From Actinomycetes bacterium (lineage in GTDB: Bacteria > Actinomycetota > Thermoleophilia > RBG-16-64-13): a stretch of 64,000 nucleotides of DNA. The stretch covers positions 62,001 through 126,000 of the forward strand of contig JAGXFW010000020.1 of assembly GCA_024637035.1 (NCBI GenBank), read 5' to 3'. The translations under genes and the position numbers were made by a program. Below are positions 33,561 to 46,656 of the stretch, piece by piece; within the stretch, counting starts at the first letter, position 1, and each line of letters begins with the position of its first letter. Below the pieces are notes generated by a model. It did no database searches, was not told where the DNA came from, and saw only the letters and a program-made list of their open reading frames with translations.

Positions 33561-33622
33561 CTCTACAGACGGCAGTGGCGACAGGTGGCAGGTGTTGGGT
33601 GACAGGTGACCGGGGGGCGCTT

Positions 33623-36307
33623 GTGGGCAGATACCTCGAGGTAGGGTCTGCTGCCGCGTCGGGCACCGATGCGGCAGCGGTCGCGGGCCAAGCGGCGCAG
33701 CTCTGCATGAGTCAGCTTCGGGTCTTCCGTCCGTCTCTCGTCACCGTGTTCGCGTCCGCTCGGTTCGACCCGCGCGAGGTCGCGAGCGGGGTGGCCGGTG
33801 TCGTGGGCGACTGCCCCATGATCGGCGCGTCCAGCGCCGGCGAGATCAGTGGCACACCACTCACGGACTCGGTCGTAGTGACCATCCTGGCGTCTCCCCA
33901 TCTGAGTGCAGAGGTGGGGGTTGGTGAGGGCGTCTCGAACGATTGGCAGACGGCCACGCGGGCGGCGCTTCCCCGCGGTCGATCATCCGCGTACTTCCGA
34001 GATGGGCCGAAAGTCGGCCGACCTTTCTACTTCGCACACCCGGCCTCAGGGCTCTCTCCGCTGTTCGTATTGCTCTTCTCGCCGGGCAAGACGCTCGACC
34101 AGCCCTCCCTCGGACACGAGATCCAGGCGTTCCTGAAGCGCGGCACGCTCGGTCGTGTGCCCATCGTGGGCGGCAACACGAGCACGCCCGACCTGGCCGT
34201 GGGCAACTTCCAGATCGCCAATGGCAAGGCCTACCGTGACGCCGTGGTCATGGCTGTGGTGGAGTCCGACCTCTTGTTCGGGGTGGGAGTCGCACACGGG
34301 TTCAAGCCCACGAAGCGGCGTGCGGTGGTCACCCGGGCTGAGGGCCACGTGGTGCACGAGATCGATGATCGGCCTGCCGCCGACGCCTGCGCGGACCTGA
34401 TGGGAGTGGACTCCATCGGGGTCGACGACCAGAGCACCGATTTCTCGCGCACGCCCTTCGGTGCCGCCGACGTCTACGGCGAGCATCACCTTCTCGTCCT
34501 CGAGCGGGCGTTGGGAGACGGCTCGGTGCAGTTCGGCCCGAACATGCAGGGTATGCAGGCCATCACCGTGATGGAGATGGACCCGGAGAAGCAACAGTCG
34601 GCGGCCGCCGATGCCGTCTCGAAGGCCATCGATATCGGTCACGTGCGTGACCCGGCGGCGGTCTTCCTGTTCGCCTGCTCGTTGCTGTTCGGCACCGACG
34701 CTCGGGAACCGCAGGTGGATGAGCGGTTCTTGAAACGAGTCACGGGCGGGGCCGCCATCGCCGGCTTCCAAACGGCCGGAGAATATGGTCTGAGCGACGA
34801 GGGCCTGCCCATCTACTGCAACCAATCGATCGTAGCGCTGGTGATAGGCGACAATCTCGATCCCCTGGCTGCGGCTACCCGTCGTAACGCGAACGCCCTC
34901 AAGGAGATCGAGGCCGAACTGGAGGGACGCACGCGCGAATTGGCGGCCGTACGGGCTGCCAACGCCGTGGTGCTCGATGGAGACAACTGGCGCGACCGAC
35001 TCGGTCGGTATGAGCGCATCATCAGCGACTTGACCGGTGCCTCGCGCGCGCGATTCCACGTTGACCTCATGGGGGGGACCGGCGATGGCTCGCCCCTGGT
35101 CGGCCGTCGCGGCCGTGCCGATCACGCGGTGCTGCCGCTCATGAGCATGGGGCGTCCCCTGGGCTTCCTGGAACTGGAAGGCAGCGAGCCGCTGCTCAGC
35201 ATGGAGGTGGCGGCCAGCATCTGCGACCTGGTGGCCCGCGCGGTCCACAGGGTCATCATGGAGCGCACCATCGAAGAGCAGGCGCGAGAGATCGAGACGG
35301 TGAATGTGATCGCTCGGGAGATCGTCACCGCAGACGACAACCGTGCGGCACTCACCAACATCGCGACCGTCATCGAACGGCACATGCACGCCGATGGCTT
35401 CTCGCTGTGGTTGAACGGGGAAGCCCCAGAGTTGGTAGGGCGGAACGGCCAGACGGAAGAGTTCGCGATCGAAGCGCGGCTCGCGGCCCGTGCGATGGAG
35501 TCCCGGATCACCCAGAGGAGCGTTGACGCGGACGCTGTGCGGATCGTGGCACCGTTGCTTCTCAAGGACCGGGCCAATGGTGCGCTCGTGCTGAGATTCG
35601 CGGCAGGCGCCGCTCCCCTCGGCACGGCGTTCCTGAACTACCTCTCGATGCCCCTTGCCGTCATGGCCGAGATGTACGTGCGTTATCGCGAGTCGAACGT
35701 GGCCCGCGAGATGCATCATCGGGTGAAGAACAACCTGCAGATCATCGCCAGCTTGCTGAATCTGCAGCTGCGTCGGCTACACGATCCGTCAGCCCAGGAG
35801 GCTCTGGAGAGCAGCATCCGGCGCATTCTGAGCATCTCCGTCGTGCATGAGGTGCTTTCAGAGAAGCACACCGGTCTTGTGGATCCGGTGTCGATAGTGC
35901 AGAACGTGTCCGACTTCGTGCTGCGGGCGATGTCCGGACCGAATCAAGAGATAGCGGTGTCCGTGGAGGGACATCCAGGCCTCGCCTTGAACTCACAACA
36001 GGCTACGAACGTGGCGGTCGTGGTGAGCGAACTCCTCGGGAACGCTCTCAAGCATGGATTCCGAGACCGCACCGAAGGCACGATCTCGGTGCGCCTGGGT
36101 CAGGAGAACGGCGCGGTGACGCTTGTAGTGAAGGATGACGGCGCAGGACCTCCAGCGGGCTTCGACCTCGTTCGCGATCAAGGTCTCGGACTGCAGCTCA
36201 TCGGGACCATCGTCGGGGGTGAGCTTCGTGGGGACTTCTCCGTGCGCGGAGCGGAACCCGGCATGGAAGCCAGGATCACATTTCCTCAGGAACCGGGACA
36301 GGCCTAG
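33623..36307 (+). CDS. FIST-domain sensor histidine kinase (HisKA_2 type)
   Basis: About 894 residues. An N-terminal FIST_N/FIST_C ligand region (about 15-400) shows M-I-G-A-S-S-A-G-E, P-I-V-G-G-N-T-S-T and A-G-F-Q-T-A-G-E-Y-G. GAF-like segments follow (about 470-690). The dimerisation/phosphoacceptor segment R-E-M-H-H-R-V-K-N-N-L-Q has the acceptor His near residue 699, and a HATPase ends with N-A-L-K-H-G, D-D-G-A-G and G-L-G-L-Q-L-I. There are no membrane helices, so it senses a cytoplasmic ligand; FIST domains are thought to bind small molecules such as amino acids. GTG 33623 has GGGGGG five bases ahead; GTG 33575 is an alternative. It is directly followed by the ANTAR regulator. Confidence 0.9.
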   Translation: MGRYLEVGSAAASGTDAAAVAGQAAQLCMSQLRVFRPSLVTVFASARFDPREVASGVAGVVGDCPMIGASSAGEISGTPLTDSVVVTILASPHLSAEVGVGEGVSNDWQTATRAALPRGRSSAYFRDGPKVGRPFYFAHPASGLSPLFVLLFSPGKTLDQPSLGHEIQAFLKRGTLGRVPIVGGNTSTPDLAVGNFQIANGKAYRDAVVMAVVESDLLFGVGVAHGFKPTKRRAVVTRAEGHVVHEIDDRPAADACADLMGVDSIGVDDQSTDFSRTPFGAADVYGEHHLLVLERALGDGSVQFGPNMQGMQAITVMEMDPEKQQSAAADAVSKAIDIGHVRDPAAVFLFACSLLFGTDAREPQVDERFLKRVTGGAAIAGFQTAGEYGLSDEGLPIYCNQSIVALVIGDNLDPLAAATRRNANALKEIEAELEGRTRELAAVRAANAVVLDGDNWRDRLGRYERIISDLTGASRARFHVDLMGGTGDGSPLVGRRGRADHAVLPLMSMGRPLGFLELEGSEPLLSMEVAASICDLVARAVHRVIMERTIEEQAREIETVNVIAREIVTADDNRAALTNIATVIERHMHADGFSLWLNGEAPELVGRNGQTEEFAIEARLAARAMESRITQRSVDADAVRIVAPLLLKDRANGALVLRFAAGAAPLGTAFLNYLSMPLAVMAEMYVRYRESNVAREMHHRVKNNLQIIASLLNLQLRRLHDPSAQEALESSIRRILSISVVHEVLSEKHTGLVDPVSIVQNVSDFVLRAMSGPNQEIAVSVEGHPGLALNSQQATNVAVVVSELLGNALKHGFRDRTEGTISVRLGQENGAVTLVVKDDGAGPPAGFDLVRDQGLGLQLIGTIVGGELRGDFSVRGAEPGMEARITFPQEPGQA

Positions 36308-36907
36308 GTGGGTGCTCAGGTGCAGACGCTGCGGATCTTGATAGCCGACGACGAAGCCATCATCCGTATGGATCTTCGCGAGATGCTCCAAAGCCTAGGG
36401 CACCAGGTGGTGGGCGAAGCCGGCGACGGAGACGAGGCCGTGCGTCTGGCGCAGAGCCTTGACCCCGACCTCGTCTTCCTCGACATAAAGATGCCGCGCA
36501 CGGACGGACTCGAGGCTCTTCGTCTCATGAACTGCGAACGGATCAGACCCGTGGTGATCCTGACGGCCTTCAGCGAGAAGTCGGTGATCGAGCGGGCGAT
36601 CGAACTCGGGGCGAAAGCCTACCTCGTGAAGCCGTTCGATTCGGCCAGCCTGCTGCCCGCCGTGCACCTGGCGATGGCCCATTCCGCCGAGCTGCGTACG
36701 TTGCGCGACGAGAACGAGTCGCTCAAGGAGGCCATCCGCGCCAGCAAGCTTGTCAATCGCGCCAAAGCACTGCTCGCAGCCCATGAAGGGTTGAGCGAGA
36801 GTGAGGCGTTCAGGCGCATCCAGAAACTCAGCATGGACAAGAACAGGAAGATGGCCGACATCGCAGAGACCGTGATCGAGTTACTCGCGAAGACCGCGGC
36901 CTCGTAG
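36308..36907 (+). CDS. ANTAR-domain response regulator (RNA-binding antiterminator)
   Basis: The 199-residue protein has a receiver domain (about 8-122; acidic pair D14-D15, phosphoacceptor D59 in F-L-D-I-K-M-P, Lys in V-K-P-F-D). A coiled coil and a C-terminal ANTAR domain follow (A-F-R-R-I-Q-K-L-S-M-D, then R-K-M-A-D-I-A). ANTAR proteins act on nascent RNA, stabilising a hairpin that prevents a terminator. The gene begins right at the kinase stop, so kinase and regulator are a cognate pair like EutW/EutV. GTG 36308 is used; GTG 36320 is possible. The next gene downstream has a leader with a terminator, its probable target. Confidence 0.92.
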   Translation: MGAQVQTLRILIADDEAIIRMDLREMLQSLGHQVVGEAGDGDEAVRLAQSLDPDLVFLDIKMPRTDGLEALRLMNCERIRPVVILTAFSEKSVIERAIELGAKAYLVKPFDSASLLPAVHLAMAHSAELRTLRDENESLKEAIRASKLVNRAKALLAAHEGLSESEAFRRIQKLSMDKNRKMADIAETVIELLAKTAAS

Positions 36908-36940: not shown

Positions 36941-36969
36941 TTGACACCCTCTCTGGCGGGTTGTATCGT
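36941..36969 (+). promoter_or_regulatory. Promoter of the aldehyde oxidoreductase transcript
   Basis: TTGACA (36941-36946) and TATCGT (36964-36969) with a 17-base spacer lie in the 179-nt gap after the ANTAR gene. Transcription would start near 36976, just before the leader hairpins. Confidence 0.75.
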
Positions 36970-36977
36970 CTACATGC

Positions 36978-37033
36978 GGAAGTGAAGGCGCTTCCCGAGC
37001 GGAGATGAAGCCGCCCGGGAGGTGCTTTTTTTT
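36978..37033 (+). promoter_or_regulatory. Leader attenuator: antiterminator hairpin overlapping an intrinsic terminator
   Basis: A 19-bp stem with one mismatch (36984-37002 with 37011-37029, 8-base loop) runs into eight T residues (37026-37033), a strong intrinsic terminator placed before the aldehyde oxidoreductase gene. A competing 6-bp hairpin at 36978-36995 with the hexaloop GAAGGC (stem GGAAGT/GCTTCC) uses part of the terminator's 5' arm, so the two cannot coexist. This is the architecture of ANTAR-controlled leaders. Known ANTAR targets have six-base loops with A at position 1 and G at 4; here position 4 fits and position 1 does not, and only one small hairpin precedes the terminator. 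Confidence 0.75.
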
Positions 37034-37086
37034 GTTGGCCGAGGCTGTTGGAGCACTGGGTCAAGGGCACCAAGGGAGGGAGTCTC

Positions 37087-38961
37087 ATGTTGCAGGGGGG
37101 ATACACCGGGAAGATCTTGCGGATCGATCTTTCCCGCAAGGAGGCACACACCGAGGAAGTCTCTGCTGAGCTCGCGAAGAGCTACATCGGTGGCGCGGGA
37201 TTCGGCATCAAGATGCTCTACGACGAGGTGCCCGCCGGCGCGGATCCGCTGGGGCCGGACAACAAGCTCATCTTCGCTTCGGGGCCGCTGTCGGGTAGCG
37301 ACACGCCGTGCGCCAGCCGGATGGCCGTCACCTCCAAGAGCCCCCTTACCGGGGCTGTGGGTATGGCCACCACCGGTGGCTTCTTCCCCGCGGAGCTGAA
37401 GTTCGCCGGGTACGACGCTCTGATCATCGAGGGCGCAGCGGACTCGCCTACCTACGTGACGATCAACGACGACGACGTGAAGTTTCGGGACGCGCAGGGA
37501 CTCTGGGGCACACACACGTCTGACTGCCAGCAGATGATCAAGGACTCTCTGAAGGATCAGGGATACCGCATCGCTTGCATCGGGCCCGCGGGCGAGAACC
37601 TGAGTCGCTTGGCGTGCATCATCAACGAGCGGCGGGCCGCCGGCCGCAAGGGCCTGGGGGCCGTCATGGGCTCCAAGAACTTGAAGGCCATCGCCGTGCG
37701 CGGGCATGGTGAGGTCGCGGTAGCCGATCCCGACGCCTACAAGATCGCCCGTTCCTCCTTCCGCGAACACATGCGCGAGAGCCCCGTGCTGTACTCGGCC
37801 TTCGCGAAGATCGGTACGCCGATGGTGGTGGATGCAGTGGGTTCCATGGGGATGCTCGCGGCCAAGAACTGGCAGGCCACGGGCGAGTTCGTCCCGATAG
37901 ACGAACTGGGCACCGAGGCGGGTAAGGCCGTCACCGTGGGCAGGAATCCGTGTCAGGGCTGTCCCGTCGCGTGTAGTCAGCTGAAGTTGGCTCGGAACGC
38001 GCCCTATGCCGGCATCATGGCAGAGGGCCCCGAGTTCGAGAGCCTCTACTCCCTTGGCACTCAGTGCGGGATAAGCAACATGGACGCCGTCATCGCCGCG
38101 GACCGCCTGTGCGATGAACTCGGCCTCGATACCATGTCAGCCGGCGTCACCATCGGTTTCGCGATGGAGCTCTCCGAGCGGGGTGCGCTTTCCGCCATCG
38201 ACAGCGGCGACCTCGATATCGCCTTCGGCAACGACCGGACGATGATGGCCCTTCTAGAGAAGATGGCGTACAGGGACGGCATCGGCGACCTGCTGGCCGA
38301 CGGGGTGAAGGAAGCCGCCGAGCGCATCGGCGGTGACGCGGCCTACTACGCGATGCACGTGAAGGGGCTCGAGTTGCCCGCCTACGATGTGCGCGGGGCG
38401 AAGGCTCACGGGTTGAACTACGCCACCTCCTATACGGGAGCGGATCACAACCGCGGGTACGCCTTCCAGGAGATCTTCGGCATCCCCATCCCCAAGGAAG
38501 TGGACCGTTTCGCCCTCGAAGGCAAAGGTGAGCTCTGCAAATGGAATCAGGACATCCGCACCGCTACGTGCGATTGTCCGACCATGTGCGCGTTCATCCT
38601 CGATATGGCGGTCCCGGCCGTCGCGGCCGAGAACTCAGCGGCGTTGCTCACCTCGCTCACCGGGCTCAGCTTCACGGCCGAGGAGGTGTTCCAGGTGGGC
38701 GAGCGCGTCAACAACCTCGCTCGAGCCTTCAACGCGCGCGAAGGGTTCTCGCGCAAGGACGACACGCTGCCCGACCGGCTCATGAACGAGCCCCTGCTTG
38801 CCGGTGGGTCCAAAGGGCATCACATCCCTCAAGAGGACCTCGACTTCATGCTCGACGACTACTACACCGCTCGTGGTTGGGACGTGGCTACCGGCACACC
38901 CACGCGCGCGAAGCTCGAGGAACTCGGGTTGGCCTCGGTCGCCGACGATCTGGGGGTGTGA
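37087..38961 (+). CDS. aor: Aldehyde:ferredoxin oxidoreductase (tungsten/molybdenum AOR family)
   Basis: A 624-residue AOR family enzyme. N-terminal domain G-G-Y-T-G-K-I-L-R-I-D-L and Y-I-G-G-A-G-F-G, then R-M-A-V-T-S-K-S-P-L-T-G. The 4Fe-4S site starts in N-P-C-Q-G-C-P-V-A-C (CX2CX3C, near 290); the fourth Cys would be in the C-D-C-P-T-M-C region near 500. It oxidises aldehydes to acids, or runs in reverse, with ferredoxin and a bis-pyranopterin tungsten cofactor. ATG 37087 follows GGGAGGG. It is controlled by the attenuator just upstream and followed by a MoaD-like protein and an alcohol dehydrogenase, suggesting an alcohol-aldehyde-acid branch. Confidence 0.93.
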   Translation: MLQGGYTGKILRIDLSRKEAHTEEVSAELAKSYIGGAGFGIKMLYDEVPAGADPLGPDNKLIFASGPLSGSDTPCASRMAVTSKSPLTGAVGMATTGGFFPAELKFAGYDALIIEGAADSPTYVTINDDDVKFRDAQGLWGTHTSDCQQMIKDSLKDQGYRIACIGPAGENLSRLACIINERRAAGRKGLGAVMGSKNLKAIAVRGHGEVAVADPDAYKIARSSFREHMRESPVLYSAFAKIGTPMVVDAVGSMGMLAAKNWQATGEFVPIDELGTEAGKAVTVGRNPCQGCPVACSQLKLARNAPYAGIMAEGPEFESLYSLGTQCGISNMDAVIAADRLCDELGLDTMSAGVTIGFAMELSERGALSAIDSGDLDIAFGNDRTMMALLEKMAYRDGIGDLLADGVKEAAERIGGDAAYYAMHVKGLELPAYDVRGAKAHGLNYATSYTGADHNRGYAFQEIFGIPIPKEVDRFALEGKGELCKWNQDIRTATCDCPTMCAFILDMAVPAVAAENSAALLTSLTGLSFTAEEVFQVGERVNNLARAFNAREGFSRKDDTLPDRLMNEPLLAGGSKGHHIPQEDLDFMLDDYYTARGWDVATGTPTRAKLEELGLASVADDLGV

Positions 38962-39046: not shown

Positions 39047-39334
39047 ATGCGGGTCACCGCACGCACGATCACGCATCTCGCCGTGCTTCTCGGGAGCAGG
39101 GAAGTCGAGTTGGAGATGCCGACGGGCAGTCGCGTGATGGATGTGCTCGTCCGCATGGCCGATCTGATGGGAGACCAAGCGGTTCCGGCGCTTCTGCGGC
39201 CTGAGGACCGGAGTCCCCAGGGCCACCTGCGGATCATGCTGAACGGACGGGATATCGGCGTCCTCGAGGGGATCGAGACCCTCGTACAAGACGGTGACGA
39301 GGTTCTGGTGGTACCGCCTGCTGGAGGAGGATAG
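39047..39334 (+). CDS. MoaD/ThiS-like sulfur carrier protein
   Basis: A 95-residue ubiquitin-like protein ending in P-P-A-G-G-G, the thiocarboxylate-type Gly-Gly tail, with N-G-R-D-I near residue 67 and D-G-D-E-V-L-V-V-P just before it. MoaD delivers sulfur to the pyranopterin of molybdenum and tungsten enzymes, and copies dedicated to AOR enzymes are common, so a role in making the cofactor of the upstream AOR is likely. ATG 39047 lies 85 nt after aor. The ribosome site is weak. An extra terminal Gly after Gly-Gly may need trimming or be an alternative end. Confidence 0.85.
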   Translation: MRVTARTITHLAVLLGSREVELEMPTGSRVMDVLVRMADLMGDQAVPALLRPEDRSPQGHLRIMLNGRDIGVLEGIETLVQDGDEVLVVPPAGGG

Positions 39335-39386: not shown

Positions 39387-40487
39387 ATGAAGACCATCGC
39401 TGCCGTCGTTCACGAGACGGGCGGGCCGTTCGTGCTCGAGGAAGTGACGCTCGACGAACCCCGGGCGGACGAGGTGCTGGTGCGGATGGTGGCCACCGGC
39501 CTCTGCCATACGGATCTCTCGGTTCGAGCCGGGTACATCCCGTTCCCGCTCCCCGGCGTGATGGGTCACGAAGGCGCGGGGATCGTAGAGGCGGTCGGTT
39601 CTGCGGTGAAGCGCGTAGCGCCAGGCGATCATGTGCTGGCCACGTTCACCTCGTGCGGGCACTGCGCCCATTGCGCCGGCGGTGAGCCGGCCTACTGCCA
39701 CACGTTCATCCCCTCGAACCTCATCGGAGGCACGCGTTCGGATGGCAGCTACACCATCCATCTGGACGGCGCCCCCATCAACGCGCACTTCTTCGGCCAG
39801 TCGACGCTGGCACGGCATGCTCTGATCGACGAGCGGAGCCTGGTGAAGGTCGCCGACGATGCTCCGCTGGAGACGCTTGCGCCCCTGGGGTGCGGCATCC
39901 AGACTGGAGTCGGCACGGTGCTCAACGTGCTGCGTCCCGAGCCCGGCAGCACGGTTGTTGTCTTCGGTGTGGGAGGGGTGGGGCTCGCGGCGATCATGGG
40001 AGCGGCCTTGACCGGGGCGTCGAAGATCGTCGCTGTGGATGTGGTCCCCTCACGCCTCGAGCTCGCCCTGGAACTCGGGGCCACGCACGTCATCGACGCC
40101 GGGTCCGTGGACGTCGTGGGAGCCCTCGCCGAGTTGTGCCCTGGAGGCGTGCAGTACACCATCGAGTGCACGGGGGTGATCGATGTGGTGAGCCAGGCCG
40201 TGCAGGTGCTTGCGCCGCTCGGCACCTGTGCCCTCATCGGTGCGCCGCCCGCCGGCTCGGTGCTGCCGATCGACGTGCAGTTCATGCTGGACGGCCGGCG
40301 TCTGGTGGGCATCACCGAGGGATCGAGCAGGCCGGAGTCCTTCATCCCCACGCTCGTCGACCTGTATCAACAGGGCAGGTTGCCCCTCGATAAACTGATC
40401 CGTCACTACCCGTTCGAGGACATCGAGCGGGCCGCCGCGGATGCCTCTTCGGGAGCGACCATCAAGCCGGTGCTGGTGTTCGACTGA
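39387..40487 (+). CDS. Zinc-dependent alcohol dehydrogenase, benzyl/aryl-alcohol type
   Basis: A 366-residue medium-chain dehydrogenase. Catalytic zinc ligands are in G-L-C-H-T-D and G-H-E-G-A-G with Cys in L-G-C-G-I-Q-T-G-V-G. The structural zinc lobe C-G-H-C-A-H-C-A-G-G-E-P-A-Y-C has all four cysteines. The cofactor loop is G-V-G-G-V-G-L near 195, with D at the end of the next strand favouring NAD. The L-G-C-G-I-Q-T-G segment is typical of aryl-alcohol dehydrogenases. It would interconvert an alcohol with the aldehyde handled by AOR. GAGAGG precedes ATG 39387. Confidence 0.9.
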   Translation: MKTIAAVVHETGGPFVLEEVTLDEPRADEVLVRMVATGLCHTDLSVRAGYIPFPLPGVMGHEGAGIVEAVGSAVKRVAPGDHVLATFTSCGHCAHCAGGEPAYCHTFIPSNLIGGTRSDGSYTIHLDGAPINAHFFGQSTLARHALIDERSLVKVADDAPLETLAPLGCGIQTGVGTVLNVLRPEPGSTVVVFGVGGVGLAAIMGAALTGASKIVAVDVVPSRLELALELGATHVIDAGSVDVVGALAELCPGGVQYTIECTGVIDVVSQAVQVLAPLGTCALIGAPPAGSVLPIDVQFMLDGRRLVGITEGSSRPESFIPTLVDLYQQGRLPLDKLIRHYPFEDIERAAADASSGATIKPVLVFD

Positions 40488-42993: not shown

Positions 42994-43106
42994 CGCTCAC
43001 CCCTCCCTGATAGGACAGCTATCCGTGCGCGGCGCTCCTCGAGGGACGCCGGCCTGTGACTCTCGGTGATCGCCGATTCATCCGGTCTACCCGTGCGCGG
43101 AGGCGG

Positions 43107-44747
43107 CTATGCGTGGGAAGGGCCTTGGCTTCCGCCGCCCGTGCTCGGAGTACTCTGCGATGTCGAGCGACCCGGTTGAGAACTAGCGATGCTCTTCCTG
43201 ATCTTGCTGAGAAAGCACTCCGCAGCTGCGGCCGCCTTCGTTCCCCGTGCTTCGCCCATGTGCGCGAGAATGGCCGTGCCCACGATGACGCCGTCTGCCA
43301 CTGTGGCTATCCCTCGCGCCGCGTCCGGCCCGGTGATGCCGAAGCCCACGAGAACGGGGATGTCGCTGTGACGGCGCACGAACTCGACCAGGGTCCGCGC
43401 CCTTGACACCGACGCCGCCGTTCCACCTGTGCCTCCCTCGACGGAGACGCAATAGACGAAGCCTTGCGCCTCCCTGACAAGCGTCTCGCATCGGCTCGGG
43501 AGGGTCTTCGGATCCAGCAAGGCCACTTTCTCCAGCCGGCACCCTTTCAGGTCCGGCGGGAGGCTGTCTGCTTCAGGCCGGGAGGGGTCCACGATCAGGA
43601 GGCCGTCGATCCCGCTGCGGCGGGCGTCGGTTGCCAGGACCGCCCCGCGTGATCGTAGTAAATGATCGTTGTAGGCCATGAGCACGACGGGGACAGTCAA
43701 CCCGCGGGTTCGGGCCAGCGCCACGTCGTCGAGCACTTCACGGGGGGTCGTCCCTCGGGCGAGGGAATCGCCTATCGCGTGCCGGATGACCGGACCGTCC
43801 AAGACTGGGTCGGGGGTGGGCAGCCCGACCTCGATTGCGTCGACGCCGGCTCTTTGGGCGCCGAGTAGCAGGGCGATGAAGGTCTCGCGGTCGGGGTAGC
43901 CGCCCACGAAAAAGGGGACGAGGCTCTTCCCCCCTGCGGCACGGCGGGCGCGCAAGGCCGCTTCCAGGCGACCGACCCGCCGGCCGCCCGCCATGCGGTC
44001 CCGATCCGAGGTGGAGGTTCTGAAGATATGGCCCCACTCCACAGGGACACCCGGGGTCATCATATGCTCCGCCTCGCTAGAGGCTCCTGGCCCACAGGAC
44101 TCAGCTGCGGCTCTCTTCGCGTGCGCTATGAACGATCGCAGCTTGCCGGGATCCTTGCGACCAGGCCGGCTTTCGGTGCCTGAGGCGACATCGACCGCCC
44201 AGGGGCGGACCGCCCTCACCGCCTCGGCGACGTTGTCGGGGTCGAGGCCGCCACTCAGGACGACCCGTGGGAACGCAGGCCGCGAGGCGATCCAGTTCCA
44301 ATCGAAGGTATCGCCGGTACCGCCGGTCACCACGCGCCGCTCGGCGACGGAGGTGAGTTCGACGCGCGCTGAATCGAGGAGGACGATACGGAGCGATCCG
44401 TATTCCGCGAGCGTGGCGATGTCTTCAGGGCCGAGCAGTCCCACCGCCTTGAGAACGGGGAAGGATAGGCTCCTAATGTAGGCGGCGTCCTCCGCTCCGT
44501 GAAGTTGTGCCACGTCGAGGCCGCAGTCGAGCATTGTGTCTCGCACGGCGTCGAGGCCTTGGTCCTGGAACACTCCCAACGTGGTCACGCCTGAGGGGAG
44601 CTCGGCGACGATACTGGCGACGACGGCGGGGTCGGCCCGTCTTCGACTGTGTGGCGCGAACACGAACCCGAGCGCGTCCGCTCCAGCCTCCACCGCGCGG
44701 AGGGCGTCTTCCCGACGAGTCAAGCCGCAGATCTTGACCAGAGTCAC
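43107..44747 (-). CDS. trpF/trpA: Fused phosphoribosylanthranilate isomerase-tryptophan synthase alpha (TrpF-TrpA)
   Basis: A 546-residue fusion. Residues 1-210 are TrpF: catalytic Cys7 in K-I-C-G-L-T, Asp125 in L-L-D, L-S-G-G-L-D-P-D-N and D-V-A-S-G-T-E. After a 45-residue linker, residues about 258-520 are TrpA, with V-P-F-F-V-G-G-Y-P-D, the catalytic Glu306 in I-E-V-G, Asp317 in V-L-D-G-P, and G-F-G-I-T. A Ser/Gly-rich tail follows. TrpA normally works only with TrpB, yet no trpB lies here or elsewhere in the window; standard operons place trpB between these two parts. The start overlaps trpC by four bases. Confidence 0.93.
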   Translation of the reverse strand: MTLVKICGLTRREDALRAVEAGADALGFVFAPHSRRRADPAVVASIVAELPSGVTTLGVFQDQGLDAVRDTMLDCGLDVAQLHGAEDAAYIRSLSFPVLKAVGLLGPEDIATLAEYGSLRIVLLDSARVELTSVAERRVVTGGTGDTFDWNWIASRPAFPRVVLSGGLDPDNVAEAVRAVRPWAVDVASGTESRPGRKDPGKLRSFIAHAKRAAAESCGPGASSEAEHMMTPGVPVEWGHIFRTSTSDRDRMAGGRRVGRLEAALRARRAAGGKSLVPFFVGGYPDRETFIALLLGAQRAGVDAIEVGLPTPDPVLDGPVIRHAIGDSLARGTTPREVLDDVALARTRGLTVPVVLMAYNDHLLRSRGAVLATDARRSGIDGLLIVDPSRPEADSLPPDLKGCRLEKVALLDPKTLPSRCETLVREAQGFVYCVSVEGGTGGTAASVSRARTLVEFVRRHSDIPVLVGFGITGPDAARGIATVADGVIVGTAILAHMGEARGTKAAAAAECFLSKIRKSIASSQPGRSTSQSTPSTGGGSQGPSHA

Positions 44748-45625
44748 GCCTGGCTCCCGCTCACGATGGGCGGATGGGGTGAAGCCGTGGGGCGTCCGAC
44801 GTAGATCGCGCCCTGCCGGCGAACGAGTCTTCGCAGTGCGGCTTCCGGGTCGGATGCGGTCACCAGCGTCTCGCCGACGAGGTAGGCGGCGGCGCCGTGA
44901 CGTCCGAGATCGTCGAGGTCCGCCGCGCTCTTGAGCCCGCTCTCCGCCACCGCCAGGATCCCGGCCGGGATGCGGGGCAGCAGACTCCGGCAGACACCGA
45001 GATCCACGTTCAGCGTATTCAGATCTCTGTTGTTGACGCCTACGAGCCGCGCTCCGGCGGCGAGGGCCATCTCGAGTTCGGCGCCGGTGTGAGCTTCGAC
45101 CAGAGGTTCCAGGCCGGCTCGACGCGCCAGCCTGACGAAGTGTCCGGTCTCAGGACCGAGCACGGCGACCATGAGCAGCACGAGATCGCCGCCCGCCGCG
45201 CCGGCTTGGCGAATCTGGTGTGGGTCCACCACGAAGTCCTTGCAGAGTACCGGTACGCGCACCGCGCGGCTGACTGCGGCCAGATCCGCGAACGACCCCC
45301 CGAAGTAGTCGGGCTCGGTGAGCACCGAGATCGCCCAGGCTCCGGCTCGCTCGTACGCCAGCGCGAGCTGCACGGGATCGAGATCTGGGCGCAGATCACC
45401 TCGCGAAGGGCTGCGTCTCTTGACCTCGGCGATCACGGGCCTCTCCCGGACCTGATGCGAAGGATCGACCAGGTCAGCGCGGGCGGCCGCGTCGAGCTTC
45501 TCGAGGAATAGCGCAGCTCGCTCTCCGGCGCGCGGCCTGGACGTCGCCGCAACGTGCGCTTCGCGAGCTTTGTCGAGTCCCACGCTGGCGCGCCGGGCAC
45601 GTACGATCTCGTCCAGGACGCTCAT
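44744..45625 (-). CDS. trpC: Indole-3-glycerol-phosphate synthase
   Basis: A 293-residue TIM-barrel enzyme that closes carboxyphenylaminodeoxyribulose phosphate to indoleglycerol phosphate. Motifs: E-V-K-R-R-S-P-S-R-G (about 68-77, catalytic Lys), S-V-L-T-E-P-D-Y-F-G-G, K-D-F-V-V-D (catalytic Lys), G-V-N-N-R-D-L and A-E-S-G. The C-terminus is about 30 residues longer than usual. It overlaps trpD and trpFA by four bases each, consistent with one coupled operon. Confidence 0.95.
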   Translation of the reverse strand: MSVLDEIVRARRASVGLDKAREAHVAATSRPRAGERAALFLEKLDAAARADLVDPSHQVRERPVIAEVKRRSPSRGDLRPDLDPVQLALAYERAGAWAISVLTEPDYFGGSFADLAAVSRAVRVPVLCKDFVVDPHQIRQAGAAGGDLVLLMVAVLGPETGHFVRLARRAGLEPLVEAHTGAELEMALAAGARLVGVNNRDLNTLNVDLGVCRSLLPRIPAGILAVAESGLKSAADLDDLGRHGAAAYLVGETLVTASDPEAALRRLVRRQGAIYVGRPTASPHPPIVSGSQA

Positions 45626-46656
45626 CGCGCGGCGCTCGCGAGTTCACAGCTGTTCGTCGCTTGCACGAGGCGCGTCAGGACGGAGAGGGCCCGACCCGAG
45701 TCGATGGAATCGGCCGCCATGGCGGTGCCTTCGCGGAGGTCGGCGGCCGCGCCCGAGAGGCGTAGGGCTGCTGCGGCGTTCAGCAGGACCACGTCCCGCG
45801 GCGGACCGGTCTTCCCCGCGAGGATCCCGTCGATCATGGCGGCATTGGTGTGAGCGTCGCCGCCCCGGATGGAATCGAGCGGCGAGCGCTCGAGGCCCGC
45901 TTCCTCGGGAGTGACAACGTATTCGGTGACCTTTCCGCCCCGCACCTCCGCGACGAGCGTGGGTCCCGAGATGCTGACTTCGTCAAGGCCCTCGCACCCA
46001 TGAACGACGATGGCGCGGGGAGTCCCTAGCCGCAGTAGGACCTCGGCGAGCAACCGAGCGTGCTCTGGGCGGGAGACTCCCACCACCTGCTGAGTCACGC
46101 CGGCTGGGTTCGTCAACGGTCCGAGCAGGTTGAACACGGTACGGATGCCCAGGTCACTCCGGATCGGCGCGACGTGGCGCATGGCCTCGTGGACGAGGGG
46201 GGCGAAGAGGAAGCCCACGCCGATGTCGTCGATGCAGGCGCACACGGTGGCGGGGTGCAGGTCGATGCGGACGCCGAGCGCCTCCAGCACGTCCGCGCTG
46301 CCACAGGTGCTGGACACGGCCCGGTTACCGTGTTTCGCAACGTGCCTGCCGGCCCCGGCAAGCACGAAGGCACTCGCCGTGGATATGTTGAACGTGTGTG
46401 AGGCGTCTCCACCTGTTCCACAGGTGTCCACCAGATCCGTCGCTCTGGGGCGGATGGTGGTGGCGTGGCGGCGCATGATCCGCGCCGCACCCACGACCTC
46501 GTCGGCAGTCTCGCCTTTGAGTCGCATGGCGGCGAGAAAGGCTCCCACCTGCCCGTCTGAGCCACGTCCGCACATGATGTGCTCCATGGCGCCCATGACA
46601 TCCGCCTCGTCGAGGTCGATACCGTCGGCCAATCTGGCGATCAGCGGTTTGAGCAT
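45622..46656 (-). CDS. trpD: Anthranilate phosphoribosyltransferase
   Basis: A 344-residue enzyme transferring phosphoribose to anthranilate. The diphosphate-binding C-G-T-G-G-D near residue 79, K-H-G-N-R near 108 and G-P-L-T-N-P near 180 are all present. The start ATG at 46656 lies within the end of trpG (16-base overlap). It is separate from trpG, unlike the fused form of enteric bacteria. Confidence 0.95.
   Translation of the reverse strand: MLKPLIARLADGIDLDEADVMGAMEHIMCGRGSDGQVGAFLAAMRLKGETADEVVGAARIMRRHATTIRPRATDLVDTCGTGGDASHTFNISTASAFVLAGAGRHVAKHGNRAVSSTCGSADVLEALGVRIDLHPATVCACIDDIGVGFLFAPLVHEAMRHVAPIRSDLGIRTVFNLLGPLTNPAGVTQQVVGVSRPEHARLLAEVLLRLGTPRAIVVHGCEGLDEVSISGPTLVAEVRGGKVTEYVVTPEEAGLERSPLDSIRGGDAHTNAAMIDGILAGKTGPPRDVVLLNAAAALRLSGAAADLREGTAMAADSIDSGRALSVLTRLVQATNSCELASAAR

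Follow-up and report, generated by a model that had tools for sequence, protein, structure and literature searches.

A hairpin shared by three leaders of alcohol and aldehyde operons, a putative ANTAR antitermination target in a Thermoleophilia genome

The AOR locus and its leader

The window, i.e. the whole stretch of 64,000 nucleotides analysed here, displays on its plus strand a predicted kinase and response regulator pair, followed by an operon that starts with an aldehyde:ferredoxin oxidoreductase (AOR) gene. The leader of the AOR gene contains a promoter, a small hairpin (H1) and an intrinsic terminator with its own apical hairpin (H2). The features are as follows.

33575..36307, plus strand: FIST-sensor histidine kinase, candidate signal sensor (Pfam matches FIST_N, FIST_C, HisKA_2 and HATPase_c)
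36308..36907, plus strand: ANTAR response regulator (Pfam Response_reg and ANTAR)
36941..36969, plus strand: promoter TTGACA-17-TATCGT (consensus scan)
36978..36995, plus strand: H1 hairpin GGAAGU[GAAGGC]GCUUCC, putative antiterminator, loop at 36984-36989 (recurs in two other leaders)
36984..37033, plus strand: intrinsic terminator with U8 at 37026-37033 (fold z -5.5)
36999..37014, plus strand: H2, apical hairpin of the terminator, GCGG[AGAUGAAG]CCGC (fold)
37087..38961, plus strand: AOR, first gene of the putatively controlled operon (AFOR_N and AFOR_C)
39083..39334, plus strand: MoaD/ThiS-like small protein, AOR operon (ThiS and MoaD_arch matches)
39387..40487, plus strand: zinc alcohol dehydrogenase (ADH), AOR operon (ADH_N and ADH_zinc_N)

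The FIST-HisKA_2 kinase has a chain length of 910 aa and a phospho-acceptor motif, HHRVKNNLQ, at residue 714. The regulator shows a receiver domain followed by an ANTAR domain, both above the Pfam cut-off (Response_reg 97.6 bits, ANTAR 66.1 bits). The promoter lies 33 nt beyond the regulator stop codon, in agreement with an earlier note on this DNA that had placed a consensus promoter directly after the ANTAR gene. The match to TTGACA-17-TATCGT is by itself at chance level (1 found vs 1.3 expected in 11 kb); its hexamers are kept at 12/12 positions in a sister species, and promoters of the same type head two other leaders. The consensus scan finds no further promoter-like site ahead of AOR. 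Transcription is expected to start near position 36976, just before H1, and there is thus no space in this leader for an upstream P1 hairpin.

The terminator is composed of a 5′ arm (36984-36997), the H2 tip and a 3′ arm (37016-37029), and its 5′ arm shares bases with the loop and the 3′ strand of H1. Its stability is 5.5 sd below that of dinucleotide shuffles, none of 200 of which is equally stable. The description of a 19-bp terminator with a T8 tail is right as to the T-run; the stem has 18 pairs here and 19 in the sister species. The overlapping hexaloop hairpin is found as described, with G at loop position 4 and without A at position 1. A second small hairpin, H2, had been overlooked, though this one forms the terminator tip, with a loop that differs between leaders. 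The AOR start codon is, as stated earlier, 54 nt past the end of the U-run, and is preceded by the Shine-Dalgarno sequence GGGAGG at 37074-37079.

Three leaders and their conservation

A covariance model of H1 and H2 finds a second leader in the same genome (G000), at G000:C3:51868 on the plus strand, which is 47 kb upstream on the same contig. It has the promoter TTGACC-17-TATGTT, H1 of sequence GGAAGU[GAGGGC]GCUUCC and a terminator with U7. The genes behind it encode an NDMA-type Zn-ADH, then malate/lactate-dehydrogenase-like and PanE-like proteins. A third leader, at C3:55255, has TTGACT-17-TAGTTT, H1 of sequence GGGGGU[AAUGGU]GCUUCC and U7, and precedes genes for a VOC-family protein, another ADH, a split transketolase and a branched-chain-type ABC transporter. 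Thus all three share one plan, a TTGAC-17-TA promoter, H1 with GU[RANGGY]GCUUCC and a U7-8 terminator, and none is farther than about 47 kb from the single ANTAR gene of the genome.

The same leaders are recovered by a scan that is blind to H1. A search for T6 or longer after a strong hairpin, across 126 kb of contig C3 (the window plus 62 kb upstream), gives three sites, which are the three H1 leaders. U-rich terminators of this type are otherwise nearly absent from the stretch scanned and may be reserved there for regulation. The H1 core common to the leaders, GTRANGGYGCTTCC, a pattern derived from the same three leaders that it matches, has exactly three matches in the 3.57-Mb genome, and the reversed control has none. 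By sequence H1 is confined in this genome to these leaders, and the window contains no second copy.

Paralogs of the AOR family number at least a dozen in the genome, with 19 matching stretches. The earlier note had proposed a covariance search for similar leaders before AOR genes; the covariance search made here led to the leader of the ADH operon. Nine other AOR paralogs show no terminator within 450 bp upstream, and the AOR of the window is the sole one of ten checked whose leader includes a U-rich terminator. Other R1/R2 covariance matches in G000, in the sister species and in the class were set aside as chance, the best inspected being nearly all coding-like and lacking T-runs. H1-like sites with one or two mismatches occur in the family at the control level and are not leaders. 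A minus-strand match in the window at 43096-43134 (17 bits) was likewise rejected as H1; it sits at the end of a trp gene. The region around it shows a 546-aa open reading frame (43107-44747, minus strand) in which phosphoribosylanthranilate isomerase (TrpF) is fused to the alpha chain of tryptophan synthase (TrpA) and no TrpB intervenes; TrpC and TrpD genes (44744-46656) are just upstream.

The whole block is present in the sister species (G001; JAHJSA010000013.1, an Actinomycetota MAG), with identities of 90% for the kinase, 92% for the regulator and 95% for AOR. All three leaders are kept, and H1 is identical at 18/18 positions in every pair, so the leader hairpin is conserved at the homologous loci, a point on which the earlier note had made its proposal depend. 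The DNA upstream of the three promoters is 35%, 60% and 69% identical. The terminator 3′ arms show 80% (AOR leader) and 73% (ADH leader) identity with pairing kept; the changes are U-A to U-G, an added C-G, G-C to G-U and a mismatch to C-G. In the third leader the terminator arms are unchanged and the H2 loop is one base shorter in the sister species. H1 is identical while its flanks drift, so selection acts on H1 itself and for more than termination alone. Covariation support for H1 appears thin, with one compensatory change, which is indistinguishable from shuffles in this comparison of two species. Between leaders only H1 is conserved; the H2 stem is kept and its sequence and loop vary. Of the 80 best relatives found, the sister species alone carries an AOR gene within 6 kb of an ANTAR gene.

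G011, a MAG from a different genus within the family, contains a copy of H1 that is 17/18 identical to that of the AOR leader, with the loop AAAGGC, i.e. A1 and G4. The leader (G011:C152:7180-7220, minus strand; L169 / L213) is promoter-led, has a weak terminator (U4) and precedes an operon of SDR and E1alpha/E1beta/E2-like dehydrogenase genes. Neither an ANTAR protein nor a FIST kinase is found in this MAG, which is 96% complete. A gene set like the SDR/E1 operon is present in the window at about 27-32 kb on the minus strand, and no H1 leader is seen there. In another relative a FIST-kinase homolog of 43% identity (G007:C177:55-1878; L222) is cut by a contig end, which would hide any partner regulator in that assembly, and it is plausible that pieces are missing from the MAGs.

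Predicted folds of the six leaders of the two species show H1 and the terminator to be mutually exclusive. When prefixes of increasing length are folded, H1 forms first and gives way to the terminator as soon as the 3′ arm is complete, in six of six. The full-length leaders fold better by 5-17 kcal/mol than folds in which H1 is enforced, so a bound factor would be needed to hold H1.

Candidate readers of H1

The single PF03861 match identifies one ANTAR protein in the genome. The regulator aligns over its full length with the Rv1626 and EutV structures, and the receiver Asp is present. In this alignment the EutV RNA-contact positions R142, K143, K147, E160, Y164, M172, N173, R175 and R177 (numbering of PMC8934654) correspond to S, K, R, E, F, M, D, N and K in the regulator. 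Thus K143 and the pocket residues E160 and M172 are kept, K147 is replaced by R and Y164 by F, and the others vary; NasR likewise has D and N at two of the EutV contact positions. The genome has no protein with a CAT_RBD domain (BglG/LicT-type) and one NusG only, with no LoaP/NusG paralog. The need for a bound factor, the adjoining sole ANTAR gene, the lack of these other antiterminators, and the retention of K143, E160 and M172 and of loop G4 together argue for the phosphorylated ANTAR regulator as the factor that holds H1.

G4 is present in 7/7 H1 loops. Position 1 is G in the AOR and ADH leaders; the third leader and G011 have A there. The published structure of EutV with RNA shows G4 flipped into the protein and A1 without a specific contact, and a tetraloop has been suggested to be avoided by EutV (PMC8934654). 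Loop positions 1 and 6 of H1 are pairable, as G-C in the AOR and ADH leaders and as A-U in the remaining one, and face each other as A-C in G011; such a pair would yield an ANGG tetraloop. Therefore either the pair opens on binding, or the ANTAR loop code differs here, or another factor reads H1.

The last of these, in which the attenuators are real and H1 is read by an uncharacterised RNA-binding protein, by a small-molecule aptamer or through an effect of RNA polymerase/NusA, seems rather unlikely. The closable loop favors it, as does the G011 leader without a detected ANTAR protein, which is the main contrary evidence against ANTAR control. Against it, in both species the sole ANTAR gene immediately precedes one leader and is no more than 47 kb from the others. 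In addition, no Rfam family reaches its gathering threshold in the window, the leader giving only sub-threshold chance matches, and a typical aptamer would be larger than H1.

Published ANTAR targets comprise a pair of hairpins, each with an A1/G4 hexaloop, and the second hairpin overlaps the terminator base (PMC3369931). H1 and H2 could be taken as such a P1 and P2, with the regulator contacting both. There are indeed two small hairpins with a 2-3-nt linker, and six-nt loops with G4 can be drawn in both hairpins of the AOR and ADH leaders. However, H2 is compatible with the terminator, and holding it would leave termination unblocked. The H2 loop of the third leader has C at position 4, besides its shortening in the sister species, and the place of the canonical P2, at the terminator base, is taken by H1. 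A strict dual hexaloop with H2 as its second member is rejected, since H2 is not conserved, and the canonical dual arrangement as a whole, a sub-case of ANTAR control whose probability overlaps with that of the preferred reading, is quite unlikely. That nothing is regulated, the terminator simply ending the kinase-regulator transcript and overlapping a hairpin by chance, is very improbable and hard to hold: a terminator behind a two-gene operon would be ordinary and the AOR promoter match alone is no better than chance, but this promoter precedes the terminator and is the only one seen before AOR, and the order promoter, H1, terminator recurs, conserved, at two other operons.

H1 is thus best read as a variant, possibly single-hairpin, ANTAR target. 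The earlier note had allowed for a variant motif, and the leaders agree with this: G4 is kept, A1 occurs in one of the three leaders and a second hexaloop is not conserved. Its central proposal, ANTAR control of AOR, gains from the attenuator anatomy, the conservation and the set of three leaders near the sole ANTAR gene; the dual A1/G4 hexaloop is present only in part.

The proposed switch and its place among ANTAR systems

The probable function of the locus is a two-component antitermination switch, in which the phosphorylated ANTAR regulator holds H1 and permits read-through into an alcohol-aldehyde-acid regulon. The phosphotransfer, ANTAR binding, read-through, substrate and signal are parts that we infer. 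As RNA emerges, H1 would fold first, the transcript starting just before it. With the 3′ arm made, the terminator would zip down from H2 and displace H1, and transcription would stop ahead of AOR. On sensing its signal, the FIST kinase would bring about phosphorylation of the regulator, which would bind the H1 loop through G4 and hold H1, so that the terminator 5′ arm stays occupied and read-through into AOR-MoaD-ADH follows. The same H1 in the other two leaders would coordinate the ADH operon and the VOC-ADH-transketolase-ABC unit, and the steps from alcohol to aldehyde to acid may be induced jointly. The three-leader set with its alcohol-oxidation operons fits ANTAR control of an AOR/ADH regulon. 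A more specific form of this reading is offered tentatively, with a little less than even confidence: a single-hairpin ANTAR antiterminator with loop RANGGY, which relies on G4 without a need for A1, has no recruitment hairpin, blocks the terminator in its bound state, and serves a carbon/redox (alcohol-aldehyde) regulon through a FIST-sensor kinase.

The closest parallel in organization is EutW/EutV of Enterococcus faecalis (PMC3369931, PMC8934654), which also pairs a kinase with a REC-ANTAR regulator and has promoter-hairpin-terminator leaders at several operons. Loop G4 is common to both systems, and the RNA-contact residues are kept in part here. Unlike the Eut leaders, which have two A1/G4 hexaloops, there is one conserved hairpin here, with R at loop position 1, a pairable 1-6 and a U-G closing pair; the sensor here is of the FIST type, and the genes concerned are for alcohol and aldehyde in place of ethanolamine. 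H1 resembles the canonical P2 in overlapping the terminator.

Among solved structures Rv1626 of PdtaS/PdtaR is closest in sequence to the regulator (E 2e-54). The actinobacterial ANTAR RNAs (PMC8164766) share the high-GC setting, and a loose loop consensus is accepted there. However, most of those targets are at the RBS or start codon or within open reading frames and few have a terminator, whereas a clear U-rich attenuator is found here. The NasR-nasF attenuator of Klebsiella (PMC7496416) also combines an ANTAR protein with a leader terminator. It differs in that NasR is a one-component NIT-ANTAR nitrate sensor, and its SELEX consensus has a C-G closing pair, in place of the U-G found here, and A1/G4 in two hairpins.

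ANTAR antitermination itself is already known. The targets in the two main ANTAR surveys are nitrogen genes or belong to general transport and metabolism, and aldehyde or oxidoreductase genes are not mentioned in their main text. A full-text literature search gave no paper that connects ANTAR with AOR; the nearest case found, in Thermacetogenium, is one of eut genes under ordinary ANTAR control.

ANTAR antitermination has so far been tied mostly to nitrogen management, and little is known of the control of AOR, which acts in anaerobic alcohol and acid metabolism. The ANTAR regulator described here is a candidate regulator for AOR. If the proposal is true, the conserved and compact three-leader AOR/ADH regulon would widen the range of ANTAR targets and also the RNA code that ANTAR proteins read. 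It would further put to the test a proposal made from structure, namely that a single hexaloop suffices as the minimal ANTAR site, with only G4 being read.
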